From NCBI GenBank assembly GCA_030673845.1, contig JAUTCQ010000012.1:1-64000 (forward strand): DNA of 64,000 bases. The letters are read 5' to 3'. The position numbers and the translations under genes are program-made. This stretch comes from Verrucomicrobiota bacterium JB022. Lineage in GTDB: Bacteria; Verrucomicrobiota; Verrucomicrobiia; Opitutales; Oceanipulchritudinaceae. Each line of letters opens with the position of its first letter. Within the stretch, counting starts at the first letter, position 1. Below, piece after piece: positions 2,205 through 26,251 of this stretch. The notes beneath the pieces are model-generated. The model searched no databases and was not told the DNA's origin. It was given only the letters and a program-made list of their open reading frames with translations.

Positions 2205-2703
2205 CTAGCGCCCGTACACCGACGAAGAGGCAAGAATATCTCCGTGTGGGAGGAGAAATTGAGCGCCCTCTATTGCACCCGCAAATTCAGTCCAAGTCAT
2301 CCCAGCCTGAACAGCGGTCTTTTGCCGTTGGACCTTCTCCCAAAAAACTGGCCCGGCCCAGTGAGAGTGTCCTCGGTCGGGGTCCATTGTCCATCGTGAT
2401 AGCTTGAGGCAATGATCCGTTGCGGATCGCCGCAGTTCCAGTGCCTCGATGACTTTGGCGGCACCGATGGAATGATTGACCCATAGAACCGGGCAGCTGC
2501 GGTCATACTGATCAATCACCGTCAGCACGCGGGAAGCCCGCCCATTGACCACTCGGTCCGTCACGAAGTCCATCGACCAACGCTGACTCGGTTTGGTCGC
2601 GCTCTCCAAAGACAGGCGGGACGCGGCACAGCGCTTCTTGCCTCGTCTGCGCGTCAGATCCAACCCGGCGGCCTTGTAGAGGCGATGGACGCAGCTTACC
2701 AGG
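2205..2703 (-). pseudogene. Decayed IS3-family transposase (OrfB integrase core) remnant
   Basis: On the minus strand a frame reads HRLYKAAGLDLTRRRGKKR, then RWSMDFVTDRVVNGRASRVL and VIDQYDRSC, the typical OrfB run up to the first and second regions of the rve/DDE core. After ALELR the frame is lost: ITMDNGP, which should carry the second catalytic Asp, appears in another frame at about 2385-2405, and the RG-x-QF segment is again displaced. There is no start codon before HRLYK, no OrfA, and no C-terminal third. The left part stops exactly where the glycosidase-like gene ends (its stop is 2696-2698), so the element was inserted at or truncated against that gene's 3' end. Not functional. Confidence 0.75.
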
Positions 2704-5032
2704 GGGCTAATCTTACTCGGTAAAATCGGAGCGTTGGATCAACCTGCCGCTCAATAAACGAGCTTGATGGGGACGTACCCTCCAGCGTCTGCTCAGTCTG
2801 CCACGGGCGGGATAAATCGGAGGTCGACTCCAAACGATAGCTAACACCGAGCCGCGAACCAAAGCGGAGCAGTAGGCGTTCATTATTTATAGAAGGCTCA
2901 AGGAGCAGGGAATGATCCATCTCGAATGGATCCGTGCCCATCCAGGCTTCTTCGAGATCAAGCCAGCCATCGCCATCGGAATCGACCGAGATGGGGCGCG
3001 GGGAGGCTTCTATATTATAGGCCAGCAACTGGCTTTCCTGAGAGGCTTCGGCAGGCAATGCTGCACGGAGGTAGCGCGTGCCAACTGGCAGGTCGACCGG
3101 GTGGCATGTGACTGTGGCCAAGCCGTCCAGGGAAGCGGCGGCGCTGGTGTAGGCCGTCTCGAGCTCGGTCCATTGCCGCCCATCGTAAGACGAGGCGTAG
3201 CGCAGCGGCACAATAGCGCCACTGGGTTGCAGCAGGGTATGCTCCACCATCGCCAGGGCATTGTGGCGGTGCACGATCCAGGCGGGTGCGGCATCCGTGC
3301 GTTGAAGCGCAGGCTGGGTGTCGAGTGCCGAAGGCACGATTTGCCAGTTGCCCGAACCTTCGTCGAGGCCCACGAAACCGGCGGTGCGTGAGTCGAGGGT
3401 GGCGTGGTCGCCCGTCTGCAACGCCACCGCGCCGATCTGCGGAAAGCCTGCGGCGGTATCGCTCCAGGCGATGCCAAAGTAGCGCATCCCCGTGGGAACC
3501 GACCCGCTGGGGCGCAAATAGGAGCGTGCGATCTCACCGTTCTCACGGGTATGCTCGACCTGAAAGGGCAAGGGGCTCCAGTCGATACCGTCGGCGGAGA
3601 CAGAGAGGGCGAGCGGAATCTCTTCGGCCACAGGAGCAAAGACCGAAACGTGGACCTCGCGGATTTCCTCACGCGTGCGGTAGACAAGGTATGCGCCCAC
3701 ACTGCCTTCTACTGGGCCGACCCGACTGTCGTCCCCCAGAGCCCAGGCGGGTGCATCCCGGTGCCAGGCGATCGCTTCGCTGGTATCATACAGCCCTTCG
3801 GCGTCTTCCAGGTCGTCAAAGAGGCGATGGGTCGTCATCAGTTCGGCCAAGCTCCCCCAGGTAGAGGTGTAGGAATATGGCAGGCCCAGCACGTTGCTTG
3901 GGGGCCGGATGAGCCAGACGCCTTTGAGCTGCTCCTCCAACGCGTTTTGCCCAAGCGGCACGCTGACGCCGTTGCGCAGGCCGTTGCCGTATACTTGCCA
4001 GTAAAGGGCGTAAGGCACGCCCCAGCGCAGGGCCAGATCGAGATTGCGCATCACCACCTGGCGCTGCATAGCATCGCTTTCCGCGTCGTGCACGCGCGTA
4101 TCGTCTGGGCTGTCGGGGTCGAGGGCCTGCATAAACGAGACTTCGTAGGCGCCCCACTCGCCCAGGTAGACGTTGCGTTCGCCAAAATAGGCGCTGGACG
4201 GAGCTTTGGACGCGATGTAGTCGAGATTGTCGATGATCTGCCATTCCTCGCCGGGGACTTTGGTGCCCCAATTGGAATAGGAGTAGAGGTCGCAACTGGT
4301 ATGGGGGACGACGGTGTCGACCGTCACCGGCCAATCGAACGTACGGTGCACGGGGATCTGATTGACCTCGAAGGCTCCGAAGACCGCGACGCCGTCCATG
4401 CCGACTGCCGCCCTCCCCTGCTCGATCCCGGCCTGGCGCGCATTGACCCAGTCGATCATACCTTGGATCTGGACGGGCCACTGCTCGGAGGGCACCAGAT
4501 CGAGCCCGATGTGGTTATCGCTTTCCCAGTTGGAGAGGATGAAGGTGCGCCCCGTGCCGCGATATGTTTCCAGAAGGTATTCCGTCAGCTCACGGAACTC
4601 TTGGGTCACGGCGGCGGCCTCGGTGGCGCTCACCCCATCTTTCCAATTCGGCAAGCGATACTCGGTCGTCATCAACACGACGGTCGCAAAAGGCAGGTCG
4701 AGCGCCTGGCGGTAATAGGGCGTCTGGATCAGCTTTGTGATGCTGTCCACCCCCGCCAGCTGGGATGCCCAATCGGAATGAAAGGGGTAGTTGTTGGCCG
4801 CCGAACGGTTGAGCCAGAGTTTGATCGTCCGCGAGCCCATCTCAAGAATTCGACTGGAGCCTTCCAGGAGAAAGGGCTGCGTGGTCAGGGCGTATTTGCC
4901 GCCGACGTGGGTCGCCCCTACCACCTCATCCATCGCTTGTTCAGCCGGCAAAAGGTAACGTTCCTCTGCCGAAGCCCACGAAGCGGCAGTAGTGCCTGCC
5001 AGCAATAGAAAAAATTGACGCCACGTTTTCAT
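2696..5032 (-). CDS. Secreted glycoside-hydrolase-like protein, paralogue A
   Basis: A 778-residue protein with a signal peptide (residues 1-22, ending ASA). It shares its first ~400 residues with the proteins at 17724-19595 and 24143-26251. Shared motifs in order: ATHVGGKY near 40, TIKLWLN, NWESDN near 170, DWVNARQAG, an FEVN segment, a TVVPHTSCDLYS segment, LGEWGAYE near 290, and LRWGVPYALYW. NWE-x-DN and GE[FW]GAYE are placed like the acid/base and nucleophile segments of clan GH-A (beta/alpha)8 hydrolases, so a retaining glycosidase is a fair inference; no named family was recognised. The C-terminal half has discoidin-like beta-sandwich stretches and an Asp-rich DSDGDGWLDLEE loop that may bind calcium. 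The protein ends RFYRVRLAPW against an IS3 remnant, so the last residues may be altered. It is 72 bases downstream of the PEP-CTERM gene at 5105. Confidence 0.6.
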   Translation of the reverse strand: MKTWRQFFLLLAGTTAASWASAEERYLLPAEQAMDEVVGATHVGGKYALTTQPFLLEGSSRILEMGSRTIKLWLNRSAANNYPFHSDWASQLAGVDSITKLIQTPYYRQALDLPFATVVLMTTEYRLPNWKDGVSATEAAAVTQEFRELTEYLLETYRGTGRTFILSNWESDNHIGLDLVPSEQWPVQIQGMIDWVNARQAGIEQGRAAVGMDGVAVFGAFEVNQIPVHRTFDWPVTVDTVVPHTSCDLYSYSNWGTKVPGEEWQIIDNLDYIASKAPSSAYFGERNVYLGEWGAYEVSFMQALDPDSPDDTRVHDAESDAMQRQVVMRNLDLALRWGVPYALYWQVYGNGLRNGVSVPLGQNALEEQLKGVWLIRPPSNVLGLPYSYTSTWGSLAELMTTHRLFDDLEDAEGLYDTSEAIAWHRDAPAWALGDDSRVGPVEGSVGAYLVYRTREEIREVHVSVFAPVAEEIPLALSVSADGIDWSPLPFQVEHTRENGEIARSYLRPSGSVPTGMRYFGIAWSDTAAGFPQIGAVALQTGDHATLDSRTAGFVGLDEGSGNWQIVPSALDTQPALQRTDAAPAWIVHRHNALAMVEHTLLQPSGAIVPLRYASSYDGRQWTELETAYTSAAASLDGLATVTCHPVDLPVGTRYLRAALPAEASQESQLLAYNIEASPRPISVDSDGDGWLDLEEAWMGTDPFEMDHSLLLEPSINNERLLLRFGSRLGVSYRLESTSDLSRPWQTEQTLEGTSPSSSFIERQVDPTLRFYRVRLAPW

Positions 5033-5041
5033 GATAAACGG

Positions 5042-6805: not shown

Positions 6806-6853
6806 AAAATGGGTAATTTGGGAGTAGTGTGAAGGGTTTTGAACGATGCCCAC

Positions 6854-6883
6854 ATGATACCGCCTGATTCCTCCCGGCGACAA
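6854..6883 (-). promoter_or_regulatory. Possible sigma-70 promoter for the 5858-6805 gene
   Basis: On the minus strand TTGTCG (6883-6878) and TATCAT (6859-6854) are separated by 18 bases, about 50 bases before the start codon at 6805. This is a reasonable -35/-10 pair for the two secreted-protein genes downstream, judged by eye only. Confidence 0.35.
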
Positions 6884-7079: not shown

Positions 7080-9227
7080 TTAGAAGGTCATCGAGATCGT
7101 GCCATTGTAGGTCCGTCCCTCTCCCCACCCGGAGGTGCTGAGCAAATAATCCTTGTCGAGGATGTTCTTGACCGAGAAGGCGAAATTCCAGTCCACCTGC
7201 TCCCCTTTGATCCCGTAAATGAACGCTACGTCGAAGCGGCTGTAGGAGGGCAAACGCATCCCTTCGAGGTCGGCAAAAGCATCGTTACCCCGGCGTTCAC
7301 CCACATATACCCAGCCAAACGAGGCCTTCAGGCCCTGGAGCGGGCCGTCGAGGAAGCGGTAGCGGTTCCAGACCGAAAACTGGTGCTCTGGAATGCCGCT
7401 GCGGCGTGTGCCGATATTTTGCGGGCGGGCATCGTCGGAGGTGATCTGGGTTTCGGTATAGGCGTAGCCCAGCATGCTGCTCCAGGCTTCGGTGATCTTG
7501 CCCTGCAGCGAGAACTCCACCCCGGTCGACTCGTCTTCGCCAGACTGGATGCTGTAGCCCGGGTGCTCAGGATCGTCCTGCGGGGTATTGCCGCGCGTGA
7601 TCGAGTAACCGAGGATAGAGCCCGAAACACGGTTGTTCCAAAGCGAATACTTGATCCCGCAGTCCCAACCGGAGCCGGTAATCGGGTCGAACAGGTCGCC
7701 ATCGTAAGTAAAGGTGCGCTGTGGCAGATACGACTCGGCGTAGCTGACAAAGGCGCGCAGCCCGGGGACGATCTCCCCCGAAACGCCGAAATTCCAGACG
7801 GCTTCCGACTTCTCTTCGTAGATGGTCTTCAAGTCGGTATCGAGCCGCACCACATCGTATTCGAAGGTGGCGTAGCGAAAGCCCTGCAGGAACATCAGCT
7901 TGTCGTCGAGGGCCGTCCAGGTGTTGTTGAACGAGATGCCCGTCTGCACCGATTCCAGGCTCTGGTCGAGCCGGATGGCGACGAAGTCTGCCGGTGTGCC
8001 CAGGTCGAAAGGGGCCGGATTGTCGATGTCGAGGCGGGCGAGGCTGCTCGGGCTCTGGCGTTTTTCGAGACGGTCCTGATCGGTGTAGTAATACTCGAAA
8101 CCGAGCATCGAAGTGTGCTTGAGCCCGAAATATTCGAACTCGCCATAGAGGTAGGCCTGCGGATCGAGATCGTAGCTGTAGGAGTCGAGGTAGTCCGGCA
8201 CCATCTGGATGGTGCGGCGCCCATCGGCACCCTGCGTCACGACCGAGGAACCGGCGATCTTCATGTGCTCGAGGTCTTGGGCGCGCCAATAAAAGCCCAG
8301 CTTGAGACTCAGGATTTCATTGAGCTGCGCCTCATAGTCGAGGTTGCCTTGCCACTGCATGACGTCCTGGAAGGCGTCAGGGCCGTTCTTGTTGAACGAG
8401 CGGTCCACATCCCAGAGAATGTGGGTGCGGTCGGCCGAAAAGTAGACTGGGTTGGTGGCAGGCGTGGAAGAGGTGTCCACATACTGCGAATCCAGCGTCA
8501 GGGTCGACTTCTTGGTCGGCTTCCAGCGGTAGTTGCCGCCGAGCACGTAGCGCTCGCGGTCGGCATAGTCGAAGCGGCTGCCATAGTTTTCGTAGACGGC
8601 GCCCAGACGCAGGCCCATCGTCCGGTTCTCGTTCAGGGGGCCACTGTAGAGCGCTTCGGTACGGAAGCGGTCGTAGGAGCCAAAGCGCAGCTTGGTCATC
8701 ACAGTAGGCCTGGCTGCGGGCGTGGGCGTAATGATGTTGATGGTGCCACCCGGCTCGATCGTGCCCGAGAAGACCGACGATGGCCCCTTGATGACTTCGA
8801 TGCGGCTCATGAAGAGCGTATCGGGCACGCCAAAGGAGCGGTATCCGTTGCGGTAGGTGGTGAAGGTGGTGTAGCCGCGGACGGCGAAGCTGCTGCCCGT
8901 GATGTCGTCGGGCGTACCGGAATCCTGCCGGCTGACGGAGGGTGAGTATTCGATCACATCGGCCAGCTCGGTCGAATCCGTATCGCGGATAAACTCGGAG
9001 GTCAGGACGTCCACGGCCTTGGGTAGTTCGAGCATGTTGGTGTTGAAGCGCGTACCGGAAAGCACGTTGGTCGCATACAGCTCGTCTTCGGCTACCGTCA
9101 CGGTAAAGGGGCTCAGTTCGTAGACAGTGCCATCGGTCTCTTCATCCGCCGTATCTTGCGCATAGGCGGGAGTGAGGGTTGCAAGGGAAAGGGCCAGCAA
9201 GCTCAGCCAGCGGTGTGGGTTGCACAT
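7080..9227 (-). CDS. TonB-dependent outer-membrane receptor (715 aa)
   Basis: The chosen start at 9227 (MCNPHRWLSLLALSLATLTPAYA) is a clean signal peptide; the 46 codons open upstream do not resemble coding sequence. The mature N-terminus has ELSPFTVTVAEDE, a TonB-box-like stretch typical of Opitutales receptors. The plug follows (residues ~55-180: SGTRFNT, LPKAVDVLT, SSFAVRGYTT, RIEVIKGPSSVFSG, PGGTINI), then a 22-strand-type barrel ending in GRTYNGTISMTF with a terminal Phe, as recognised by the BAM machinery. Such receptors import siderophores or oligosaccharides with TonB-ExbBD energy. The neighbouring secreted glycan-related proteins favour an oligosaccharide, but the SVSRQD plug and barrel also resemble siderophore receptors, so the ligand is open. 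A large hairpin region precedes the gene. Confidence 0.85.
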   Translation of the reverse strand: MCNPHRWLSLLALSLATLTPAYAQDTADEETDGTVYELSPFTVTVAEDELYATNVLSGTRFNTNMLELPKAVDVLTSEFIRDTDSTELADVIEYSPSVSRQDSGTPDDITGSSFAVRGYTTFTTYRNGYRSFGVPDTLFMSRIEVIKGPSSVFSGTIEPGGTINIITPTPAARPTVMTKLRFGSYDRFRTEALYSGPLNENRTMGLRLGAVYENYGSRFDYADRERYVLGGNYRWKPTKKSTLTLDSQYVDTSSTPATNPVYFSADRTHILWDVDRSFNKNGPDAFQDVMQWQGNLDYEAQLNEILSLKLGFYWRAQDLEHMKIAGSSVVTQGADGRRTIQMVPDYLDSYSYDLDPQAYLYGEFEYFGLKHTSMLGFEYYYTDQDRLEKRQSPSSLARLDIDNPAPFDLGTPADFVAIRLDQSLESVQTGISFNNTWTALDDKLMFLQGFRYATFEYDVVRLDTDLKTIYEEKSEAVWNFGVSGEIVPGLRAFVSYAESYLPQRTFTYDGDLFDPITGSGWDCGIKYSLWNNRVSGSILGYSITRGNTPQDDPEHPGYSIQSGEDESTGVEFSLQGKITEAWSSMLGYAYTETQITSDDARPQNIGTRRSGIPEHQFSVWNRYRFLDGPLQGLKASFGWVYVGERRGNDAFADLEGMRLPSYSRFDVAFIYGIKGEQVDWNFAFSVKNILDKDYLLSTSGWGEGRTYNGTISMTF

Positions 9228-9306
9228 GGGAGTAATGGGGGTATTGGGGTTGGGAGAATCGTGAATCTCTGAAGGAAGCCTAAACGGGAGCCTCCAGGGA
9301 GCCAAT

Positions 9307-9385
9307 GATGCCCCATGCGGAAACTTGGGCATTAAGTTTGCGCATGGAGGCATCGCCGGGAGCAAGGCGGGGCAGGCCTCCCGGC
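9307..9385. repeat. Two tandem long hairpins before the TonB receptor gene
   Basis: Bases 9307-9354 form an imperfect stem of about 20 pairs (GATGCC, CCATGCG, AAACTT on one arm; AAGTTT, CGCATGG, GGCATC on the other) with one bulge and one mismatch around a short loop. Directly beside it, GCCGGGAG (9355-9362) pairs with CTCCCGGC (9378-9385). They fill the gap between the oxidoreductase stop (9394) and the receptor start (9227) on the minus strand. No U-tract follows, so they may be a 5'-leader structure of the receptor mRNA or a processing element between the genes. Confidence 0.6.
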
Positions 9386-9393
9386 ATGGAAGA

Positions 9394-10957: not shown

Positions 10958-11809
10958 TCAGCCTTTGACGCCGCCCAGCTGGATGCCACGGATGAGCTGC
11001 TTCTGGAGGAAGATGAACGCCACGATCATCGGCAGCACCGCCATGGTGACGGCCGCCATCAAGAGGTGCGTCGACTGGCCTCGGGAGGAATCGAAATAGA
11101 GCAGGCCGATGGGCAAGGTGTAACGCTCCATCGTCCGCACCATGATGAGTGGCCAGAAGAAGCTGTTGTAGTTGCCGATAAACGAGAAAATGGTGAGGGT
11201 GACGATGCCTGGCCGAGTCAACGGCAGGATGACGTTCCAGAAGATCTGCCAGTGGTTGGCGCCGTCGATCTCTGCCGCCTCGTCGAGCGAGCGCGGGATG
11301 CCGAGCATGAACTGGCGAAGCAGGAAGGTGCCAAAGGCGGTAAACGCAGCCGGCAGGATGAGCCCGGGCAGGGTGTCGACCAGGCCGAGCCGAATCATGA
11401 TGCTGTAGTTGGGCACAATCATCACGATCCCCGGCAGCATCATCGTGCCCAGGTAGAGCAGGAAGACGGCGTCGCGGCCCTTCCACTGCAGGCGGGCAAA
11501 ACCGTAGGCGGCCAGCGAACTGGTCAACACCTGCAGGAAGGTGACCCAGCTCGCGACGAAGATGCTGTTCCAGTAAAAGCGCCCGAACTCGATCACGTTG
11601 AACACCTCACGGTAGTTCTGCCACTGGGGCGCACTCGGGATCCAGTGCTCGGCATCGACTTCCGAGACGGATTTGAGGCTCGTCAGCACCATCCAGACGA
11701 AGGGGATCAGCATCAACATGCTGAGGGCGGAGAGGGCGAGGTAGCGCCCCATGGCACCGGCCAGCCATGAGCCGGTCTGAGGGCGGGAGCTTGAATCAGT
11801 CGGCGACAT
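10958..11809 (-). CDS. Sugar ABC transporter permease, MalG type
   Basis: A 283-residue inner-membrane protein with about six helices. The first follows MGRYLALSALSMLMLIPFVW and the last is near MAVLPMIVAFIFLQ. The EAA loop that docks the ATPase is clear: EAAEIDGANHWQIFWNVILP near residue 190. The end QLIRGIQLGGVKG is typical of MalG/LacG/UgpE-type permeases of the CUT1 (carbohydrate uptake) class. Its first 14 bases overlap the end of the MalF-type gene, so the two are translationally coupled. No ATPase lies in this operon; the gene at 22743-23873 is the likely energy source. Confidence 0.88.
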   Translation of the reverse strand: MSPTDSSSRPQTGSWLAGAMGRYLALSALSMLMLIPFVWMVLTSLKSVSEVDAEHWIPSAPQWQNYREVFNVIEFGRFYWNSIFVASWVTFLQVLTSSLAAYGFARLQWKGRDAVFLLYLGTMMLPGIVMIVPNYSIMIRLGLVDTLPGLILPAAFTAFGTFLLRQFMLGIPRSLDEAAEIDGANHWQIFWNVILPLTRPGIVTLTIFSFIGNYNSFFWPLIMVRTMERYTLPIGLLYFDSSRGQSTHLLMAAVTMAVLPMIVAFIFLQKQLIRGIQLGGVKG

Positions 11810-13283
11810 AGCGGTTCCCGAATTTCCAGTTGAAGAGGGTGATGAGGAAGACCATCAGGAAGAGGACCCAGGCTACGGCGGAGGCGTAGCCCAAACGTCC
11901 CGTTTCAAAGCCCTCCGTATAGACGTAGTAGCTGAGCGTGGTGGTAGCGCCGGCCGGTCCGCCTTTAGTCATCGTGCGGGCCATTTCAAAGCCGCCTTGC
12001 AGGCCGTAGATGAAGCTCATGATGACGATGAAAAAGGTCACCGGAGCGAGTTGCGGCCAAGTGATGTGGTGGAACTTCTGCCAGCGCCCCGCCCCATCGA
12101 TGTCGGCCGCTTCATACAGCTCCGGTGAAATATTGGAAAGGCCAGCCAGGTAGAGGATCATGCTGTTGGAGCCGATCGAAGCCCAGAGGCTCATGATCAT
12201 GATCGAGGGCTTGGCCCAATGATAATCCGCCAGCCACAGAGGCGGCTCCAGGCCGCTGCGACTCCAGACAGGCAGGTGCAGCAGCACTTGGCCGATCCCG
12301 ATCAGCGCGAGCAAAAGGGCGACCACCGCCCCGCCTTTCATCAGAGCTGCACCCATGCCATGGGCTTTGGGGGCGGCGTGGCGGAAGGGATAGCGAGCCC
12401 AGACGCGCCGGCCTCGCCATACACCCAGCGCCACGGCAGCGGCCACAAATACGATCCCGGTCGGGCCAGGCAACCAGCGCAAGGCAAAGAAGAGCGGCAC
12501 CAGCAGTGCCACGAGGGCTGCGACCAGAGCGGCGGTCCCTTGCTCCCCTTCGCGCCAGGCCACGAGGCTGCCCCGCAGCGCCGCGCTCCAGACCCAGAGC
12601 ATGAGTGCGGCCACCAGCGCGAGCGCCACGTAACCAGCCTGGGGCGGAAATTGTGCCGCCACCCCGCCCACGGCGTCGAGCACAGGGCTGAGTGTCGAGT
12701 TGATCGGCCCAGAAGTGGGGTTGTAGAGCTTCTTCCAGAGGATGAAGATGGCCACGCCCTGGGTGAAGTGCGGCAGGTAAAACAGCGTGCGGTAGACCGT
12801 CGTGCCGCCGGCCATACCCGAAATCATCACGAGGGCAAAGAGGCCCGCCAGCACGGAAACGATGGCACTGGCCCCGAAGCCGAGCGCCAGGAGCAGCAAG
12901 CCGGAAGAGACCGAAAGCCCTACCGACCAGAAGAGCCAGCCCGGGCCGCGATACCCTTCCTTGGGGTTGCGGAACAGCAGCAGTGCCGCCCCGAGGCTGC
13001 CCGCAATGCTGAAGGGGATCCCCAGCAGCAGGAAGAAGGTGTTGCCGAGGTATTGCCAGAAATTCGTGTCCTGAAACAACTGGATGAAGTTACGCAGGCC
13101 GACGAACTGGATCGGGTTGTCCTGAAACATGTTATGCTGCAGGAGGTCCCAGTTGGTGAAGGCCATCACAAAGCTGAGCACCAGCGGCACCAGCGTAAAA
13201 AGGAGGAAGCCCAGAATGTTGGGCGAAATGAAGGCGAGCCCGCGCAGGACGGCGGCAGAGTCTTTGGAAAGGTGGGGTCTCAT
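11796..13283 (-). CDS. Sugar ABC transporter permease, MalF type, with extra membrane helices
   Basis: At 495 residues this is far longer than the ~290-310 of usual CUT1 permeases. The core is present: GLAFISPNILGFLLFTLVPL (helix 1), NTFFLLLGIPFSIAGSLGAA (helix 2), YRTLFYLPHFTQGVAIFILW (helix 3), LYEAADIDGAGRWQKFHHIT (EAA loop, near residue 410) and GYASAVAWVLFLMVFLI (last helix). Two hydrophobic blocks are inserted: about residues 95-145 between helices 2 and 3, with two possible helices, and about 200-340 between helices 3 and 4, with roughly four more. The inserts are in frame, and flanking core sequence is normal. It starts 4 bases inside the solute-binding-protein gene (ATGA overlap). 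Confidence 0.85.
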   Translation of the reverse strand: MRPHLSKDSAAVLRGLAFISPNILGFLLFTLVPLVLSFVMAFTNWDLLQHNMFQDNPIQFVGLRNFIQLFQDTNFWQYLGNTFFLLLGIPFSIAGSLGAALLLFRNPKEGYRGPGWLFWSVGLSVSSGLLLLALGFGASAIVSVLAGLFALVMISGMAGGTTVYRTLFYLPHFTQGVAIFILWKKLYNPTSGPINSTLSPVLDAVGGVAAQFPPQAGYVALALVAALMLWVWSAALRGSLVAWREGEQGTAALVAALVALLVPLFFALRWLPGPTGIVFVAAAVALGVWRGRRVWARYPFRHAAPKAHGMGAALMKGGAVVALLLALIGIGQVLLHLPVWSRSGLEPPLWLADYHWAKPSIMIMSLWASIGSNSMILYLAGLSNISPELYEAADIDGAGRWQKFHHITWPQLAPVTFFIVIMSFIYGLQGGFEMARTMTKGGPAGATTTLSYYVYTEGFETGRLGYASAVAWVLFLMVFLITLFNWKFGNRYVAD

Positions 13284-14770
13284 TCGGCGCGCGGAGTATC
13301 GGCACGGCGCTGCAGTGCCAGGTGGTAGGGGTTACGGAGCAGCGAAGCGGGCACGGGCTCGCCTGCCTGCTTCAGGGCGTCGATCTCGCGTTGGGCGGCG
13401 AGCAGGCGGGCGTGTTTTTCCGCCAGCTGGGGCCGGTCTCGCAGGTTGCGCTGGATCTCGGCATCGAGGTCGCGCTGCATGCGGTAGGCTGCCGTCGGCG
13501 CATCGATCAAACCGTTCATGAACGCCTCGTAGTGGCTGTCCAGGATGCGCGAGGTGGCAGTCGGCAAAATGAATTCGTTGTAATCGTAGGGGATCGCGAT
13601 TTCTTTGGCCGCGTTGGCAAAGACCTCGTGCACTCCCCATTCGTTGGGATGCTCCGGCGGGCGCAGAAAGGCCTCCGTTTCGGTAAAGCGGGGGTTCGGC
13701 GGCAGGCCGTCGGCATCGCGCACGATCTGCATGTTGTACCCCTCGCTCGCGAGGTAGGCCAGGAAGTAGGCCGCCAGCTCCTTGTTCTCCGCACCGGCAT
13801 AAACGGACGAGATGCCGCCCATGATCAAGGTGTTGCGGTAACGCTCGGCCGGGGGCTCGCTTACCGCGAGCTGCAATGGCTCGTCGAACCGACGGAGCTG
13901 CAACAGCGCGTAGCGCCCCATCATGACCATCCCCACCCGCCCTTCGCGGAAGAGCTGCAGGGCGGGGCCACCGAAGCCACTGGAGGTCGTAAACGAAGCC
14001 CGGTCGGCGGCGGTGGGGAGCAAACGCTCTTCGAAGGTCCAGCGATGGATGGTTTCGAGCACCTCTATCGTGCGGGGGTCATCCAGCGTAGAGGCTGTCA
14101 TCGTCTCGTTGAAGAGACTTTGGCCGAGGCCGCGCATCATGACGACGGGCAGCGCCATCTGGTCGGTCTGGTCGGGCAGGAGGAAAAAGGCCGGTGTGCG
14201 GTTTGCGCCCGCGTTGGCCCGGGCGACAAACTCCTTGCCCACCCGCTCGAACTCCGCCCAGTCCCACACCTGCGGAGGCTGCTTCATCCCCAGGTTGTCG
14301 AACGTCTGACGGTTGACCCAGAACATGAAGGTCGACACGTTGCGCGGGAAACCGAACTGGCGCCCATCCACCGTGATCGCCTCCTCCATCGAGGGGTATG
14401 TCTGGTCGGTTGAAAAACCAAGAGCCTGCGCCTCATCCGTCACGTCCTCCAACATGCCGACACCGTGGAAGACCAGCAGGTCTCGCTTGGCCCGGTTGCA
14501 GTCGACGATTTCGCCGCCGACGCCTGAAACGCCCTGGATCAGCTTTTTAGTGATCTCCGCGTTGGCCGCATCGAGAAACACCTGCATGCGCGGGTAGTCG
14601 TGTCGATCCAGCCACTCATAGTAGGTCGCGATCTGCTCGACTCGCGCCGGGTGAGGGTCGGTCACCCAGTGCAAGACGGGTAAGTCCCCGCCCTGCCCCG
14701 GGATCGAACGCATGGTGGCGATACTGGCGAGCGCCAATACTCCCCCTGTAATCAGAAAGGTGCGCTTCAT
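13280..14770 (-). CDS. Extracellular solute-binding protein of the sugar ABC importer
   Basis: A 496-residue protein starting MKRTFLITGGVLALASIATM, an N-terminal helix serving as signal or anchor; no lipobox Cys is visible, so it is either periplasmic and cleaved or membrane-tethered. The body has family 1 binding-protein features: VLHWVTDPHP, VDGRQFGFPRNVSTFMFWVN, DNLGMKQPP, WDWAEFERVGKEF and GRVGMVMMGRYALLQLRRF. It captures a sugar and delivers it to the two permeases downstream. First gene of the operon SBP-permease-permease-oxidoreductase on the minus strand. The C-terminal ~40 residues (LAAQREIDALKQAGEPVP) are helical and unusual for the family. Confidence 0.82.
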   Translation of the reverse strand: MKRTFLITGGVLALASIATMRSIPGQGGDLPVLHWVTDPHPARVEQIATYYEWLDRHDYPRMQVFLDAANAEITKKLIQGVSGVGGEIVDCNRAKRDLLVFHGVGMLEDVTDEAQALGFSTDQTYPSMEEAITVDGRQFGFPRNVSTFMFWVNRQTFDNLGMKQPPQVWDWAEFERVGKEFVARANAGANRTPAFFLLPDQTDQMALPVVMMRGLGQSLFNETMTASTLDDPRTIEVLETIHRWTFEERLLPTAADRASFTTSSGFGGPALQLFREGRVGMVMMGRYALLQLRRFDEPLQLAVSEPPAERYRNTLIMGGISSVYAGAENKELAAYFLAYLASEGYNMQIVRDADGLPPNPRFTETEAFLRPPEHPNEWGVHEVFANAAKEIAIPYDYNEFILPTATSRILDSHYEAFMNGLIDAPTAAYRMQRDLDAEIQRNLRDRPQLAEKHARLLAAQREIDALKQAGEPVPASLLRNPYHLALQRRADTPRAE

Positions 14771-16774: not shown

Positions 16775-17659
16775 TCAATCCGCATCATCTTCCACCTCGT
16801 CGGTATAACGCTTGCGATAGTCGCGAGGAGATGCATCGCAAAACGTTCTGGTCCAGGAAGAAAAGTCGGAAAGCCGCAGAAACCCGAGCTCCAGTGCGAT
16901 TTGCTTGATCGGCACGTTGGTTATGGCCAGCATCCGCCGGGCAAAATCGCGCCGCCTCTCTTCGAAATAGCGTTTCGGGGTAACGCCCATCTCCTTACGA
17001 AAGATGCGCACAAATTGCCCGGAGCTCAACCCTTGGGCCGCACCGAGGTCGACTTCACTGAAACGGGTGTCGAGCGGCAACTCGTCCAACACATGCAGCG
17101 CCTCCGCGACTCGTTCGTCGCTGATGCCCATCCGCGTAGGCTTGATCCCCATCTGCACCAGCACGCGGTAGTATTCCGACATCCACTGGAGCAGCGCAGC
17201 TTTTACTTGCAGAAACTTGTCGAAGGTAAGCTGAGACTTACGGAAGAGAAAGGGATCCTCGCGCGGCAGATCGGCACAAGAGCCGAGGAGATTGCGGGCG
17301 GCCACCTCCAGCTCCGGGTGGAGCTGGGCAGGGAAAGAAACGCTCAGCCCATGGTCGAAGAGAGGGCGCTTGTCTGGCCAGCGAGCCTGGAAGCGAATCG
17401 AAAGGATGCGGGAGCCTTCTTCAAACGACTGAAAACGGCGACCGGGCCAAGGGAACAACCAGTCCCCTGCCCCGGCTTTAACCGTCACATTCTCGGCTTT
17501 CAATTCACAGCCGCCCTCCAGAATCAGCCATGCCGCGAGGTCGCCCGGTGGGAAGGTGCCTTGACGGACGGATTTCAATACATCGCCCTCGTAGATCCAG
17601 ACGAGATTCGTCCGGATGTGCATGCAGTCTTCAAAGGTTACAACCATCGATCCACCCAT
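16775..17659 (-). CDS. AraC-family transcriptional regulator
   Basis: A 294-residue protein with a cupin-like N-terminal sensor (residues ~10-130: GTFPPGDLAAWLILEGG, GAGDWLFPWPGRR) and a C-terminal pair of helix-turn-helices (~190-285: QGLSSGQFVRIFRKEMGVTP, then ARRMLAITNVPIKQIALELG and FLRLSDFSSWTRTF, ending SPRDYRKRY). This is the AraC/XylS architecture, generally a sugar-sensing activator. It lies between the oxidoreductase and the glycosidase-like gene on the same strand and is the best candidate regulator of this locus. Start is either 17659 or the in-frame ATG at 17647; both have short purine tracts upstream. Confidence 0.85.
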   Translation of the reverse strand: MGGSMVVTFEDCMHIRTNLVWIYEGDVLKSVRQGTFPPGDLAAWLILEGGCELKAENVTVKAGAGDWLFPWPGRRFQSFEEGSRILSIRFQARWPDKRPLFDHGLSVSFPAQLHPELEVAARNLLGSCADLPREDPFLFRKSQLTFDKFLQVKAALLQWMSEYYRVLVQMGIKPTRMGISDERVAEALHVLDELPLDTRFSEVDLGAAQGLSSGQFVRIFRKEMGVTPKRYFEERRRDFARRMLAITNVPIKQIALELGFLRLSDFSSWTRTFCDASPRDYRKRYTDEVEDDAD

Positions 17660-19626: not shown

Positions 19627-21246
19627 TCAAGGAACAGGCGTCAGGGTCAGGTTGAACGGGGCGGCAGGGAGGCCTTCGCGATTGTAGAGGATCAGACGCG
19701 GGTCGTTGTGGAACGCATAGCGAAGCTGCATGGGCACCGACACATTGGCGCTGGAAATTTCGAGCCGATGGCGGTCGAGCACGGTGGCTTCGGCAGCATG
19801 AAAAACACCGTCGGCCCCCGCGAGCTGGAAGTCGGGCCCATCGCCATTCGCCCGGGTCGAGTCGAGCACCATGCCGCAGGGGCAATGGTCAAACGAGATC
19901 ACCACCTTACCGCCGGCATCGACGCTCGCAGCCAGAGGAGCGGGGCCCTCGTCGAGCACCCAACGGTCTCCATAGGCCAGGCGGCGAGCCAGCAGGCCCA
20001 AGCGCTTTACGACCGTGTGCTTGTCGCGCGGGTGGATATTGAGCGCGTCGCCCACATCCGCCGTCACCACAAAGCCCGCCGCCGGCAACGACTCGACCGT
20101 CTGCTGCTGGACGAGGCGCATCTCGGCCCAGACGTCGGTAAAGAGCGCCGGATCGCTTCCCCGCTCCACCGGGTCGTGATTCTGCAACTGGACGACCAGC
20201 AGCGGCAGGTCTGGATCGTTACGGCGGCCGCGCCAGACTTCGGCCAGCGCGGTCAGATAATCGTCGTAGGTGCCATGGTTGCGCGTATCGGACTCTCCTT
20301 GATACCACACGATCCCTGCGACCGGGAAGCGCTCCAGCGGGCCGATCATCCCATGATAGAGGCCGCCGGGCTGGTAGCGCCAGTTGGGGTAAGGCTCGCT
20401 ATAGGCCGCCGCGTAAGTGGGTGCCCAATGGTTCTGCAAGGAATCCTCGATGTAGGCGGGGAGCTGTTGCTCGTAATAGGCGTCGAGCTCGTCCGCGTAT
20501 TGGGCGCGACGCGTAGCGTGGGTCGAGAGGTTGGCTGCCGCGAGATTGCGCGCCTGAAGCTCGTCGGTCGGCAGCCAGGCCATGATCGAGGTCCCGCCCA
20601 GCGAAGCCACGATCACGCCCACCGGCACATCTTGCTGCGCGCGGATCTCGCGCGCAAAAAGGTAGGGGACGGCAGAAAAATAGGGCGCATACTGCGTCGT
20701 ATCCGGCCGCCACGAGCCATGCACCGCATCCGTCGGCTGCCAGTCGGCAATCGGCACGACGGTATAGACGCTGAGCAATGGATCGCCCGCCGCGGCCACT
20801 TCCCCTTCCCAATCAAGCACCCCTTCGCTCCATGGCAGGTAGGGGCGCATGAGAAAGTTCATGTTGGACTGGCCGGAGCAGAGCCATACGTCGCCAATGT
20901 GAATGGGCGCAATACGCAGCTCATCCGTGCCGGAAGTCACGACCAGGGCGCAGGCCGAGCCCGTATCGGAGGCGCTTTGAGCGGGCAATTCGAGCTCCCA
21001 GCCCCCGGTGCTGCCTGCCGTGGCCGTCGCGCTGGCCAACGTGGCACCACCGGGGGTATCGCGCACCAGCGCAACGCTGATACCGGCCCCGGCTCCAGCC
21101 TCTCCCCAGATGCGAATCGGGGCCTCGCGTTGCAACACGGCGTGGGGAGCAAAAAGATCGGCCACGGTCAGGGCGTGGGCCATGAGCGGACAGAACAGAA
21201 GCGCAAATCCGAGGGGTAGTCGGAGGGTAAAAAGGGGTAGTTTCAT
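19627..21246 (-). CDS. Sialate O-acetylesterase-like SGNH esterase
   Basis: A 539-residue secreted protein (signal peptide residues 1-25, ending AHA). An Ig-like N-terminal domain begins FAPHAVLQREAPIRIWGEAG. The SGNH esterase domain shows block I DVWLCSGQSNMNFLM with the nucleophile Ser near residue 128, GVIVASLGGTSIMAW (Gly block), GIVWYQGESDTRN (Asn/Gln block) and, near residue 410, DVGDALNIHPRDK with the catalytic His. It removes acetyl groups from sialic acid or other acetylated sugars in secreted glycans. An acetylated substrate would fit the GH-like and GH130-like neighbours. About 160 bases separate it from the GH130-like gene upstream. Confidence 0.85.
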   Translation of the reverse strand: MKLPLFTLRLPLGFALLFCPLMAHALTVADLFAPHAVLQREAPIRIWGEAGAGAGISVALVRDTPGGATLASATATAGSTGGWELELPAQSASDTGSACALVVTSGTDELRIAPIHIGDVWLCSGQSNMNFLMRPYLPWSEGVLDWEGEVAAAGDPLLSVYTVVPIADWQPTDAVHGSWRPDTTQYAPYFSAVPYLFAREIRAQQDVPVGVIVASLGGTSIMAWLPTDELQARNLAAANLSTHATRRAQYADELDAYYEQQLPAYIEDSLQNHWAPTYAAAYSEPYPNWRYQPGGLYHGMIGPLERFPVAGIVWYQGESDTRNHGTYDDYLTALAEVWRGRRNDPDLPLLVVQLQNHDPVERGSDPALFTDVWAEMRLVQQQTVESLPAAGFVVTADVGDALNIHPRDKHTVVKRLGLLARRLAYGDRWVLDEGPAPLAASVDAGGKVVISFDHCPCGMVLDSTRANGDGPDFQLAGADGVFHAAEATVLDRHRLEISSANVSVPMQLRYAFHNDPRLILYNREGLPAAPFNLTLTPVP

Positions 21247-21408: not shown

Positions 21409-22455
21409 TTACGCCACGGGGTTGGCCAGCAGGTGGGCGAGGAATTCATCCAACGGGGCCGTGGCCACCGCGCAACTGACGTCGGCCGCGCCGTAGTAAA
21501 GGAAGTAGGTGCCGTCGATCACCACGTGGCCGCAGGGGAAGCAGACGCCGTCGTAGATGCCCTTCTTCTCGTAGTCCGCCTCGGGCTCGTAGATCGGCTC
21601 GGGCGTGCGGTGCGTCACGCGCGAAGGGTCGTCCAGGTCCAGCAACACGGCGCCCAGGCGATACTGCTTGTCTTCGCCCACCCCGTGGTAGATCTGCAGC
21701 CAGCCAGCCTCGGTCTTGAGCGGCGGGTTGTTGGCGCCGACCTTGCGCTCCCAAGCCTTCTCGCCCTTCATCAGCAGGCGCAGCTCCTTCCACTCCAGCA
21801 GATCGTCGCAGCAGGCGATCCAGATGGCAGGGTATGGATTGTCGAAGCCCTTGCCATGCCACTGCATCGGGCGGTGGAGCGTCACCCATTTGCCCCCTAC
21901 CTGCTCGGGGAAGATCACGACATCGCGGTCGTCGACCGAAGGATCGGTCAGGCGCCCGGCGCGGATCCAGGTCTTGAAGTCCTGCGTGAGGTAGAGCTGG
22001 GTGGATGTGAAATTGCGGCGCAGGGCGGCAGGAAATTCGTCCGGAAACTCCGAACCGGCTTTGGCCTGATTATCCTGAAAGGTCCAGTAGCGGCCCGGGG
22101 GCAGCGCGCGCGTGGCTGCGGTCACATAAAACCAGTCACCGATCTTGATCACTCGTGGGTCTTCCACACAACCGCCATCGGGCGTGAGCGCCAAGGGAGA
22201 GAGCACAGGCTGGTCGCTAACTCGTTCGAAGTGGTAGCCGTCTCGACTGCGGGCCAGGCCGAAGAATACGCGGTGCGCTTCTTCGTGCCCGGCAGCGCGG
22301 TAGAGCAGGTAGACGTCGCCCGTGGCTTCGTCGCGAAAGGCGCCTGGATTGGTCGTCACCTCGCCTTCCCATTCCGACCCGGATAGAGGGGCCAGAATGG
22401 GATTGCCGGCAAAACGGTTGAGGCGAAAAGTAGTTGGGGTTGGTGCTTGCATCAT
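21409..22455 (-). CDS. GH130-like glycoside phosphorylase/hydrolase
   Basis: A 348-residue cytoplasmic protein, the usual length for the family, without signal peptide. Five-bladed beta-propeller signatures of GH130 are present: NPILAP near residue 18, ATGDVYLLYRAAG, GGCVEDPRVIKI near 93 (the ED-P-R segment contains the proposed general acid Asp), GANNPPLKT, GWLQIYHGVG, and FPCGHVVIDGTYFLYYGAAD near 320. GH130 enzymes phosphorolyse or hydrolyse beta-mannosidic linkages, so a mannose-containing substrate for the locus is plausible. It is divergent from the ABC ATPase gene, sharing the 22456-22742 control region. Phosphorylase or hydrolase cannot be told by eye. Confidence 0.78.
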   Translation of the reverse strand: MMQAPTPTTFRLNRFAGNPILAPLSGSEWEGEVTTNPGAFRDEATGDVYLLYRAAGHEEAHRVFFGLARSRDGYHFERVSDQPVLSPLALTPDGGCVEDPRVIKIGDWFYVTAATRALPPGRYWTFQDNQAKAGSEFPDEFPAALRRNFTSTQLYLTQDFKTWIRAGRLTDPSVDDRDVVIFPEQVGGKWVTLHRPMQWHGKGFDNPYPAIWIACCDDLLEWKELRLLMKGEKAWERKVGANNPPLKTEAGWLQIYHGVGEDKQYRLGAVLLDLDDPSRVTHRTPEPIYEPEADYEKKGIYDGVCFPCGHVVIDGTYFLYYGAADVSCAVATAPLDEFLAHLLANPVA

Positions 22456-22643
22456 CGAGTATTAATTGAACAGATCCACCCGGCGGTGGAAATCGTGAAG
22501 CGGAAGCATATCTGCGGAAAAACTTAGTGATTTTGAGCAAGCATCCGGCTACTATCAAAACCAGCACACCCTTCTTTATTAATGCACGCACGCGCTTATC
22601 GGGCGATGGTCCAACTCGCCACGTGGGAGCCCTCTACGGTGCA

Positions 22644-22676
22644 TTTCGGAACATGCTTTTGCCTAAAATTCCGAAA
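22644..22676 (+). promoter_or_regulatory. Inverted repeat upstream of the ABC ATPase gene
   Basis: TTTCGGAA (22644-22651) and TTCCGAAA (22669-22676) form a perfect 8-base inverted repeat with a 17-base spacer, in the divergent region between the GH130-like and ATPase genes, about 70 bases before the ATPase start. It may be an operator for a sugar regulator or AraC-type half-sites; no clear core promoter was identified next to it. Confidence 0.4.
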
Positions 22677-22742
22677 CCTTCGCCGTTAATCGCTACTTAC
22701 ATCCGCTCGACAATCTGCCCCTCAAACCGGAAGACTTTCAAG

Positions 22743-23873
22743 ATGGCCAAGGTCCTACTCCAAAACCTCACGAAGATTTACCCCGGAACCCGCAAGACCT
22801 CTGCATTCAATGCAGTCAAAGGCATCGATCTCGAAATTCGCGACCGCGAATTCATGGTGCTTGTCGGCCCTTCCGGTTGCGGCAAATCCACCACTTTGCG
22901 CATGATCGCCGGCCTGGAGGAGATTACCTCTGGCCGCATCGTGATCGACGAACGCCCTGTGAACGATGTAGCGCCCAAGGACCGCGACATCGCCATGGTG
23001 TTCCAGAATTACGCGCTTTACCCGCACATGACTGTCTACGAAAACATGGCGTTTGGCCTCAAGCTGCGTAAACAAAGCCGGCAGGAGATCGACCGCCAGG
23101 TGCGCGAGGCCGCCGCCATGCTCGACCTCGAACCCTTGCTCGAGCGCAAGCCCAAGGCCCTTTCCGGCGGCCAGCGGCAGCGCGTCGCGGTTGGCCGGGC
23201 CATTGTCCGCAAACCGAAGGTGTTTCTCTTCGACGAACCCCTGTCCAACCTCGACGCCAAAATGCGCGCCTCCACCCGCACCGAGCTTTCGCGCCTGCAC
23301 GACCGCCTCGGCGTCACCATGATCTACGTCACGCACGACCAGATCGAAGCCATGACGATGGGCGACCGCATCTGTGTGATGAATGCAGGCGAGATCATGC
23401 AGGTAGCCGACCCTTTGACCCTCTACAACCAGCCCGCAAACCTCTTCGTGGCCGGGTTTATCGGCAGCCCACCCATGAACCTGATCGCAGGCACGCTGCA
23501 GCGCGATGCCCAAGGATCGCTCTTTGTGGAAGACGGGGCCGAGGGTGCTGGAATCCAGGTGCGCCTCGATGACCGGGTCGCGGGCACGGCCAAGGTTACC
23601 CAAGGCCAGAAAGTCGTGCTCGGGATCCGACCGGAGGATGTGCTGGAAAGCGAAAAGGCCCCCGCCGACGCATCGAACCCCTGCATGTTCAAGGTCGATG
23701 TTTCCGAACCCATGGGCTCCGAAACTTACCTCTACCTGAACACGGCCTCGACCCAGATCATCGCCCGCATCCCGCCGACGGATCGCTTCGAGCCCGGGCA
23801 GATCGCCTCGATGTGTTTCGACCTCTCCAAGGCACACCTTTTCGACGCAGAGACCGAAGAACGCATGTCGTAA
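22743..23873 (+). CDS. Sugar ABC transporter ATP-binding protein (MsmK/UgpC-like)
   Basis: The start at 22743 gives [15 protein letters not shown], the standard N-terminus of CUT1 ATPases, and a 376-residue protein; the frame is open 72 codons upstream but that part has no homology. Walker A is GPSGCGKST (residues 42-50), Q-loop [17 protein letters not shown] near 90, signature [14 protein letters not shown] near 140, Walker [14 protein letters not shown] and H-loop [17 protein letters not shown]-terminal TOBE/MOP regulatory domain (residues ~240-370) follows. It should couple ATP hydrolysis to the MalF/MalG-type permeases at 10958-13283, which have no ATPase of their own, and may serve several importers. 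It stands alone on the plus strand. Confidence 0.9.
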
Positions 23874-23948
23874 ACGCCCTCAGCGTTACGCAATCCCTAA
23901 AAATAACCAATCAGAATTCAGACAGATTCCAAAGCCACCAGCGCTCCC

Positions 23949-23989: not shown

Positions 23990-24142
23990 CGCTTCATTGC
24001 CAAACAGCGCCGGGATGGAGAAGCTGCCACGTCGCCCAGCGACTCCTTATAATCAACCCCGTGTTTCGTGCCTGTATGCCCTCGGGATTCCTACGCCCGT
24101 AGCGGCCTGGCCACAAAGCGCTCTACCCCACCCCAGCGACAC

Positions 24143-26251
24143 ATGAAAACCTCCCTTGCCGTCCCCTTCGGCCGATTCGCAGCCCTGACCTCCATCGGGG
24201 CTTTTTCATCCCTGCTGACTGCCCAACTGCCTTCTCAACCGCTGGCCGACATCATCGGCGAAATCCACTCGGGCGGTAAATACAGTATCCCCCTCTACTC
24301 GCCCGCCACCGACTACTTGACGGAGGGCGCCGACCGGATCTCACAACTCGGCTCGCGCACGATCAAGCTCTGGCTCAACAGCTCGCCCAACCGCAATTAC
24401 CCGAACTTCACCGGCCTGCACGCCTTCCCCTCATGCGACGACATGACGGAGCTGCTGCAGACCACCTATTACGCCGACGCGCTCTCGCGACCCGACTTCA
24501 AGACCTATTTCTTTGTCGCGACCGAATTTGCGAAACCCAACTGGAAGGATGGGCTCTCCCCCGCCGAAGAGGCCGCCATCATCGCTGAATTTGCCGAAGC
24601 GACCGAATATTTGCTGGAGACGTATTCCGGCACCGGCAAGACCTTCATTTTCCAAAGCTGGGAAGGCGATAACCACCTCAGCCTCGATCTGCTCGATCCG
24701 GCGGACTGGCCTGTCGCAATCCAGGGCATGATCGACTGGATCAATGCCCGACAGGCCGGGGTCGAAGCCGGCATCGCCGCCGCCAGCGGCTACTCCGACG
24801 TCTACGTCTACAACGCCTGCGAGTTTAACTACAACCCCGGGGCCGCATCGAGCCTCCCCGTCTCTGCCGCCAATTGCGTCATCAATGCCGTGATCCCCTA
24901 CACCGATTGCGACCTCTACTCGTGGTCCAACTGGGCGAGCAAGGGCACCGGGCAGGAGATCAACGTCATCCGGGGGCTCGACTACGCCCGCGCCCGCACC
25001 CCAAGCTCTTCCACCTTTGGGCGCGACAACCTCTACATGGGCGAGTTCGGCGCCTACGAATCAAGCTTCATGGGCAGCTCTGCGCCCTACCATTCCGCCT
25101 CCTCGGATGCGACCCTCAGCAGCGTGATCATGAACCAGGTCGACTACGCTCTGCGCTGGGGCCCGCGTTGGATCGTGCACTGGGCGATTTACGACAACGG
25201 GCTGCGCAGCGGTGAGACCTTCAACTACACCACACCTGTCTCCCTCTTTGAAAACCAACTGGTGGGCACTTGGCTCATTCGCCCGCCCGGTGAGACGATG
25301 AACCCGGACTACAGCTTTATCACGGCTTACGGCGAGCTCGCCCGGCTCAACGCCCGCCGCCTGCATCACGACCCGCTCGACGACTTGAGCCTCGCCAGCG
25401 CCACCGGCTCCTGGACCATTGCCACCACCAACCAGTCGTGGGATGAGGACGACTTTTCACGCTACTACCGCACGACGACCGGTACCACCACTTCGCTGAC
25501 CTATGAGGTAGACGGTGAGATCGTCGATCTAAACCTCAAAGCGTTCATCTACTCCTCCAGCAGCAACTTCAGCCCTGCCGGTCGTATCCGCGGCTACACT
25601 TCGGCGGACGGCGTCACCTGGAGCTCAGCCTTCGACTTCTCCGTTGTCGACAGCATCGCCCCCGATCCCAGTACCCCCGCGTGGGAGCGTGCCCACCTCG
25701 GCTTACCCTCTGGCGGGATCGCTGCCGGTCAGCACTTCCTCAAGATCGAGCTCTACGGCTCCACCGCCAGCTGGGCCACTCAACTCGCCGATGTGCGGAT
25801 CCAGACCCGCCCTGCCGCCACCACGGCAGACGAGCTGGCCGACCTGACCTTGGTCGAAGCCTCGGATAACGTCAGCCTCGTCAGCGGCAGCACCGCCTAC
25901 AGCGAAGGCGATACCGATCGGCTCTACCGCAACACGACCAGCCCAGGTTACATCGCCTACAAACTGCGCGATATCGGAGATTTCAGCGTAAAGCTGATCC
26001 ACTACACCTCCGCGATGGACAGCACCCGCTTCAAGGCCTACGCGTCCTACGATCTCTCCACCTGGCAGGAAGTAAACCTGAGCTTCGACAGCCCCGTCCA
26101 CACCGACGGCAGTTGGTACCGCACCAACGCCCACCTCGCCGATCCCCTCCCCACCGGCACCCGTTACGTGATCTTTGAGCTAATCGACCCCACCTACAAC
26201 TGGAGCCCGCAAATCGCGGATGTCACGATCGAGCACGCGGAAGAGCTGTAA
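24143..26251 (+). CDS. Secreted glycoside-hydrolase-like protein, paralogue C
   Basis: The start at 24143 gives MKTSLAVPFGRFAALTSIGA, a signal peptide; the frame extends 25 codons upstream without signal-like sequence. The 702-residue protein is the third member of the family with 2696-5032 and 17724-19595: IHSGGKY, SRTIKLWLNSSPNRNYP, FIFQSWEGDN near 180, MIDWINARQAG, CEFNYNPG, VIPYTDCDLYSWSNWAS, YMGEFGAYESSF near 310 and LRWGPRWIVHWAIYDNGL. It is closest to paralogue A. Two discoidin-like beta-sandwiches follow (about 420-560 and 570-702, with ADVRIQTRP and ADVTIEHAEEL ends), which may bind glycan. A glycosidase role is inferred only. It is followed by a strong terminator and is probably monocistronic. 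Confidence 0.6.
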   Translation: MKTSLAVPFGRFAALTSIGAFSSLLTAQLPSQPLADIIGEIHSGGKYSIPLYSPATDYLTEGADRISQLGSRTIKLWLNSSPNRNYPNFTGLHAFPSCDDMTELLQTTYYADALSRPDFKTYFFVATEFAKPNWKDGLSPAEEAAIIAEFAEATEYLLETYSGTGKTFIFQSWEGDNHLSLDLLDPADWPVAIQGMIDWINARQAGVEAGIAAASGYSDVYVYNACEFNYNPGAASSLPVSAANCVINAVIPYTDCDLYSWSNWASKGTGQEINVIRGLDYARARTPSSSTFGRDNLYMGEFGAYESSFMGSSAPYHSASSDATLSSVIMNQVDYALRWGPRWIVHWAIYDNGLRSGETFNYTTPVSLFENQLVGTWLIRPPGETMNPDYSFITAYGELARLNARRLHHDPLDDLSLASATGSWTIATTNQSWDEDDFSRYYRTTTGTTTSLTYEVDGEIVDLNLKAFIYSSSSNFSPAGRIRGYTSADGVTWSSAFDFSVVDSIAPDPSTPAWERAHLGLPSGGIAAGQHFLKIELYGSTASWATQLADVRIQTRPAATTADELADLTLVEASDNVSLVSGSTAYSEGDTDRLYRNTTSPGYIAYKLRDIGDFSVKLIHYTSAMDSTRFKAYASYDLSTWQEVNLSFDSPVHTDGSWYRTNAHLADPLPTGTRYVIFELIDPTYNWSPQIADVTIEHAEEL

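Follow-up and report, generated by a model that had tools for sequence, protein, structure and literature searches.

Three paralogues of an unnamed sequence family, probable clan GH-A glycosidases, around a sugar importer of Verrucomicrobiota bacterium JB022

Three related genes and their neighborhood

The window, that is, the whole stretch of 64,000 nucleotides of contig JAUTCQ010000012.1 that was analyzed here, harbors three genes coding for related proteins, referred to as members 1, 2, and 3 (Table 1). They share a module of about 370 residues in which each of four motifs (H-x-x-G-[KR]-Y, NWE-x-DN or SWEGDN, W-x-NARQAG, and [LM]GE[FW]GAYE) occurs once per protein; a shared module with these motifs had been proposed by the first-pass annotation of this DNA. 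Over this module, the other two paralogues are 49% and 39% identical to the copy of member 1. A search of the bacterium's own genome (an assembly that is 97.34% complete) with the member 1 protein matched, besides itself, only the other two, with E values of 1.9e-112 and 2.9e-71 and 39–40% identity, so their kinship is far beyond chance. The open frame of member 2 begins with a TTG at 19595; as its second codon is an ATG, translation more likely starts there, at 19592. All three N-termini look by eye like signal peptides, and the proteins would accordingly be secreted.

Table 1 Features of the locus, in window coordinates
Feature	Position	Strand	Details
Member 1 (P0002), 702 aa: signal-peptide-like N-terminus, catalytic module, two beta-sandwich modules	24143..26251	+	
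Predicted catalytic (beta/alpha)8 module of member 1, residues 32-402	24236..25348	+	AlphaFold2, residues 25-412
E174 codon, predicted acid/base, after strand 4	24662..24664	+	
E301 codon, predicted nucleophile, strand 7	25043..25045	+	
First C-terminal beta-sandwich module of member 1, residues 405-556	25355..25810	+	Related modules in the other two paralogues
Second C-terminal beta-sandwich module of member 1, residues 566-702	25838..26248	+	
Member 2 (P0004), 623 aa	17724-19595	-	
Predicted catalytic module of member 2	18378-19514	-	Glu codons 19107-19109 and 18735-18737
Member 3 (P0003), 778 aa	2696-5032	-	
Predicted catalytic module of member 3	3839-4939	-	Glu codons 4523-4525 and 4157-4159
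GH130 mannoside phosphorylase/hydrolase-like, possible intracellular partner	21409..22455	-	PF04041, E 2.2e-42
SASA-type carbohydrate acetylesterase, possible partner	19627..21246	-	PF03629, E 1.8e-19
AraC-type regulator	16775..17659	-	PF12833, E 5.9e-17
FAD-dependent oxidoreductase PF12831	15100..16725	-	E 8e-98
Sugar ABC importer: two permeases and solute-binding protein	10958..14770	-	PF00528 twice, PF13416, PF01547
Second FAD-dependent oxidoreductase PF12831	9394..10989	-	E 3.5e-96
TonB-dependent outer-membrane receptor	7080..9365	-	PF00593, PF07715
MalK-type ATPase of sugar importer	22758..23873	+	PF00005, PF17912, PF08402; start chosen within ORF 22527-23873

The last 308 residues of member 1 were modeled as two beta-sandwiches (pLDDT 83.1, pTM 0.56). 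When a profile of the module was made from relatives, leaving out the window proteins, it found two copies in member 1 (residues 405-557 and 559-700), one copy (403-540) and a weak partial one (610-668) in member 3, and one copy (401-522) in member 2, the latter with an E value of 7.4e-13 in a search of the three proteins. The C-terminal parts had been thought to differ; they do so in copy number, but the module itself is common to all three. Foldseek placed a tandem CBM51 on top for this part (E 2.3e-7), with a poor superposition. VIA-align returned many jelly rolls, adhesin, MAM, CBM32-, and CBM6-type domains among them, the best at Z 11.0 (129 residues, rmsd 2.8) and most at Z 8-9, a little above what the tool itself rates as common. 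The modules may bind sugar, and they probably hold the polymer.

The surroundings are as first described, with a sugar importer, an esterase, and a GH130-like gene between the three paralogues: permeases, a sugar-binding protein, a SASA-type esterase, a GH130 protein, and a MalK-type ATPase are all present. With descending coordinates, the minus strand presents GH130, then the SASA esterase, member 2, the AraC-type regulator, an FAD oxidoreductase, the binding protein, two permeases, the second FAD oxidoreductase, the TonB receptor, two secreted-looking proteins, and member 3; the plus strand carries the MalK-type ATPase and then member 1. The TonB receptor scores 220.7 bits, just below the 223.5-bit cut-off of the NCBIfam siderophore-receptor model TIGR01783. 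The two secreted-looking proteins (5105-5806 and 5858-6883) are related to each other and have no Pfam match, and the first of them ends, by eye, in a PEP-CTERM-like sorting signal. Elsewhere in the window, three very long minus-strand ORFs follow one another (28356-33983, 34421-43864, and 43864-49833, with 1875, 3147, and 1989 aa), of which the one at 28356-33983 matches phosphodiester glycosidase (NAGPA), Golvesin_C, and metallophosphatase profiles.

A sequence family and its distribution

The proteins had been described as not placeable in any named family, and HMM searches of Pfam and NCBIfam agree. With E values up to 10, Pfam gave for the three proteins only a weak TSP3 repeat (residues 684-702 of member 3), and NCBIfam matched nothing. 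Sixty family members yielded scattered matches only (best E 0.0021 in Pfam and 0.022 in NCBIfam), and neither the three proteins nor the family had a significant match among PDB sequences. In Pfam, NCBIfam, and the PDB sequences, no known family without enzymatic function thus gave a significant match. TatD_DNase, which matched 4 of the 60 members (best E 0.0021), was put down to chance because of the structural matches of the model described below. Among the papers listed by literature searches, in which an exact-name query was impossible, none named the family; the motif NWEGD was not found among the matches listed, and no paper treating PF12831 together with polysaccharide was found. Judged by these searches, this is a real sequence family that has no name in Pfam, NCBIfam, or the PDB sequences.

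Membership in GH5 or GH39 was rejected at the sequence level by the Pfam, hhalign, and profile-versus-PDB searches. The GH5 profile (PF00150) matched none of the three proteins (E up to 10) and was absent among the families listed for the sixty members (E up to 0.1). The same holds for the GH39 profile (PF01229), which also had no match in the bacterium's own genome at E up to 0.001. In an hhalign comparison with rough sets of both families, the probability reached 2.5% for GH5 and 0.7% for GH39, a crude test since 4 of the 16 GH5 rows and 3 of the 8 GH39 rows are shorter than 160 residues. The family profile had four GH5 glucanases on top among PDB sequences (E 0.13-0.24, not significant). 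All four align the Glu of a GEFG motif, which is the nucleophile in GH5, with E301 of member 1, and two also put a YW on the strand-8 Trp. Haem monooxygenases occur in the same list at E 0.47-0.76, which places it near noise.

The family is found well beyond this genome. A five-row profile detected members in 20 of the 387 genomes searched in the phylum, and a 60-row profile matched 22, two of them weakly (E 9.4e-4 and 1.5e-5); the other searched genome of the same genus (G016) contained no member. A pattern scan of genome contigs gave 126 pattern matches and at least 80 confirmed loci. The 70 scan rows placed in the tree bear 12 bacterial phylum labels, including Verrucomicrobiota, Bacteroidota, Bacillota, Pseudomonadota, Planctomycetota, and Acidobacteriota, but these labels are the submitters' titles, many of them of bins, and the phyla are intermixed in the tree. 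Relatives are also carried by three haloarchaeal plasmid records, all annotated as hypothetical protein, and in the plasmid members L167 and L168 an integrase gene lies no more than 10 kb away. One branch (support 100/99) unites members from five Legionellaceae records with that of a Protochlamydia bin (L090, L103, L104, L106, L109, and L113), even though the hosts come from different phyla; Legionellaceae and Protochlamydia alike are inhabitants of amoebae. Two copies from a bin titled Akkermansia muciniphila (L101 and L102) are very close to those of Opitutaceae bins, and that title may be wrong.

Two or more family members are present in 15 of the 80 scan loci, a count that leaves out the split-frame loci L065 and L089 and includes some near-duplicate loci. 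In 46 of the 80, the open frame spans just 340-500 aa, with room for little beyond the barrel. A recent tandem duplication as the source of the three copies of JB022 is ruled out by their split placement in the tree: member 2 groups with Paenibacillus L041 (support 100/99), apart from members 1 and 3, which fall in a verrucomicrobial clade (support 98/97).

Fold, conserved residues, and predicted catalytic pair

Structure prediction had been proposed as a check for a TIM barrel. AlphaFold2, given residues 25-412 of member 1 and an alignment of 60 rows, returned a confident model (mean pLDDT 94.0, pTM 0.93) whose strands, assigned with DSSP and numbered by us, are ordered as a (beta/alpha)8 barrel. 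Strand 4 covers model residues 143-147, and the predicted acid/base E174 (model 150) lies three residues beyond it. The predicted nucleophile E301 (model 277) is in strand 7 (273-278), and another glutamate, E227 (model 203), is near the end of strand 5 (197-205). Two traits of clan GH-A are therefore present, the barrel itself, both in the model and in its PDB matches, and, by position along the strands, a Glu at the end of strand 4 with a Glu at strand 7. This is where the first-pass annotation had located the acid/base and the nucleophile. From their strand positions in the model, E174 and E301 would share one pocket.

Among the best 50 of 1381 Foldseek matches (E up to 10), which span E 1.2e-8 to 1.1e-5 and include GH5_18, GH1, PslG, and GH157 entries, the top one is the GH5 exo-beta-mannosidase Op5Man5 of Opitutaceae TAV5 (7bob, E 1.2e-8). 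The superpositions are loose, with TM scores by query of 0.40-0.55 and rmsd of 7-10. The 50 matches listed by VIA-align are GH1-type glucosidases, GH5_18 proteins, and beta-glucuronidases (Z 20.2-22.3, rmsd 3.5-4.6 over 273-321 residues, 8-15% identity). The GH1 beta-glucosidase 9l0q has the top Z among them (Z 22.3, rmsd 3.8, 300 residues), with rows within Z 1 of the best counted as tied. The families matched by the two programs are of clan GH-A type. A search of viral structures returned several glycosidases from phages and giant viruses, interspersed with unrelated and unnamed proteins.

None of the families compared here accounts for the sequence. GH5 has the same barrel, but is 11-15% identical, gives no Pfam match, and differs in the residue before the strand-4 Glu, which is Trp rather than Asn in the family. 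GH1 enzymes are 8-15% identical and also without a Pfam match. PslG, a GH39 enzyme, is among the best 50 Foldseek matches (E 2.5e-6), and the strand-6 DLYSWS of the family aligns, in a weak profile alignment, with a DFVSTH-like GH39 sequence; however, GH39 has neither a Pfam match nor, in the crude hhalign set, an appreciable probability (see above). An Asn before the acid/base is common in clan GH-A but not universal, and for this reason we do not treat it as a defining trait; its absence here, the residue being Trp in 73 of 73 rows, nevertheless speaks against the assignment. GH164 combines a clan GH-A barrel and Glu residues on strands 4 and 7 with Asn-159 before the acid/base Glu-160 and a homotrimeric assembly (PMC7105311). 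It differs from our family in this Asn, and it provides a precedent for assigning a new sequence family to clan GH-A by barrel and Glu positions. GH173 is a recent addition to the clan made by a modeled barrel and clan residues (PMC8810776), a precedent that we liken to our case by description only. It was absent among the matches listed by Foldseek (best 50) and VIA-align (50), which has no excluding weight. The family described here is probably a new one inside a known clan.

Nine residues, W173, E174, D176, R203, E227, D257, S262, E301, and W347, are invariant in all 73 aligned rows, which comprise 70 of the 80 scan loci and the three window modules. The loci left out are fragments (L074, L110, L112, and L114), a locus whose open frame covers just part of the match (L115), a split frame (L065), a short sequence (L095), and rows taken as near-duplicates (L052, L070, and L072). 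The scan peptides themselves hold W173-D176 and R203, so conservation at these positions is biased by selection, and profile-found members were therefore scored as a second set. This set of 54 rows, made up of members from further genomes and of second copies that share a locus with a scan row, was reduced to 38 by removing 9 copies of scan or window members and mutual near copies. Among its rows with a letter at the position, W173 and D176 are kept in 37/37, R203, E227, and D257 in 36/37, E174 and S262 in 35/37, and E301 and W347 in 36/36. Gln replaces E174 in two members (L025 and L168), both of which retain E301, and Ser replaces E227 in Halomontanus L167, which retains E174 and E301. When 78 scan rows were aligned to the profile, E174 was found in 76/76 and E301 in 74/74, whereas W173 and W347 were each replaced by Arg in a single row.

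Taken with the fold, these data make it very probable that the three proteins are retaining glycosidases of clan GH-A. The mechanism is assigned by analogy with GH164, for which the stated criterion is a (beta/alpha)8 barrel with Glu residues on its strands 4 and 7. Because the strand-5 residue E227 equals E174 and E301 in conservation, the catalytic assignment is not unique. A barrel of clan GH-A type could pair E227 with E301 or with E174, possibly outside the usual retaining mechanism, and the location of E227 near the strand end as well as the two members with Gln for E174 are in keeping with such a pair. We nevertheless regard it as improbable, as L167 has lost E227 and kept the other two, and the model resembles enzymes of clan GH-A type, in which strands 4 and 7 carry the catalytic pair, as stated for GH164 (PMC7105311). 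The same E174Q members, the binding-like modules attached to the barrel, and the several copies per locus would also fit non-catalytic, glycan-binding barrels that aid sugar capture at the surface. However, the presumed catalytic Glu residues, for which a binding protein would have no use, rank with the most conserved positions of the family, and in more than half of the scan loci the open frame has room for little beyond the barrel, so pseudo-enzymes appear the least credible of the readings considered.

A different question is novelty. The family may correspond to a recent CAZy family that is already named but lies outside Pfam, NCBIfam, and the PDB, which would be compatible with the clan GH-A reading. 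Recent clan GH-A families with few characterized members do exist, GH173 being one (PMC8810776). We consider such a correspondence somewhat unlikely, given that the three plasmid-borne relatives are annotated as hypothetical protein and that sixty members lack a convincing Pfam or NCBIfam match.

Recurring neighbors, possible substrate, and proposed pathway

Relatives of the window's neighbor genes were searched in the 80 scan loci (E up to 1e-10), giving raw counts without a background from loci that differ in length. Both FAD oxidoreductases have relatives in the same 7 loci, the SASA esterase and GH130 in 8 each, the permeases in 8 and 4, the TonB receptor in 5, MalK in 4, the 5105 protein in 2, and the AraC-type regulator in 1; none were found for the binding protein or for the genes at 38, 26695, 27335, and 28356. 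Pseudobacter L042 and Flavobacteriaceae L063 encode, as does the window, two separate FAD oxidoreductases, a SASA esterase, and two family members, and GH130 was not found in either of these loci. PF12831 oxidoreductases near the family occur in L038-L042, L046, and L063, from records titled Verrucomicrobiota, Bacteroidota, and Paenibacillus, and they are paired in the window, L042, and L063. Among hand-picked neighbors of other members (221 ORFs chosen, 141 scanned as sets of 62 and 79), we found sulfatases (3/62 and 3/79 proteins), GH2 (5/62), and an alginate lyase (1/79), and SusD and TonB proteins are also neighbors of family members elsewhere. Neighbors of the SusD, TonB, sulfatase, and GH2 kinds, like the importer, esterase, and GH130 of the window, favor a glycosidase role.

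By sequence, the solved structures nearest to the window GH130 are a 1,2-beta-oligomannan phosphorylase (E 2.1e-48) and a 1,2-beta-mannobiose phosphorylase (E 1.3e-47). However, it scores far under the NCBIfam cut-offs (at best 203 of 450 bits), and the nearest structures therefore do not fix its specificity. Similar GH130 genes (67-71% identity) share a locus with family members in five cases, titled Opitutaceae, Opitutales, Opitutia, or Puniceicoccaceae. The GH130 likeness together with the SASA esterase suggests an acetylated beta-mannosidic glycan as the substrate, a weak guess that may be right for this locus, and the sulfatases, GH2, and alginate lyase near other members argue against a single substrate for the whole family.

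If the three proteins are indeed clan GH-A glycosidases, the secreted family members would cut the glycan by double displacement on an equatorial beta-glycosidic bond, with E174 as the acid/base, E301 as the nucleophile, and W347 at strand 8 as the floor of subsite -1, while the beta-sandwich modules would hold the polymer. The SASA esterase would strip acetyl groups, the importer would take up the oligosaccharides, and GH130 and the FAD oxidoreductases would act in the cytoplasm. In its widest form, the proposal is that this unnamed family of many bacterial phyla and haloarchaea constitutes the extracellular part of an undescribed system for the utilization of acetylated glycans, one that would attack a beta-mannosidic, perhaps 1,2-beta-mannan, glycan. 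The system would consist of several members, SASA esterases, and paired PF12831 proteins, as they occur in the window, L042, and L063, with GH130 added in some loci, that of JB022 included, and with Paenibacillus L041 having it in part. We can only speculate here, and the proposal is unlikely to hold in all its parts.

If confirmed, the family would close a gap within a known clan without introducing a new mechanism. The alignment and its nine conserved residues provide a profile and exact mutants, and the recurring neighbors give a short list of substrates. A glycosidase family of many phyla, now a hypothetical protein in the three annotated records, would then become readable in genomes.
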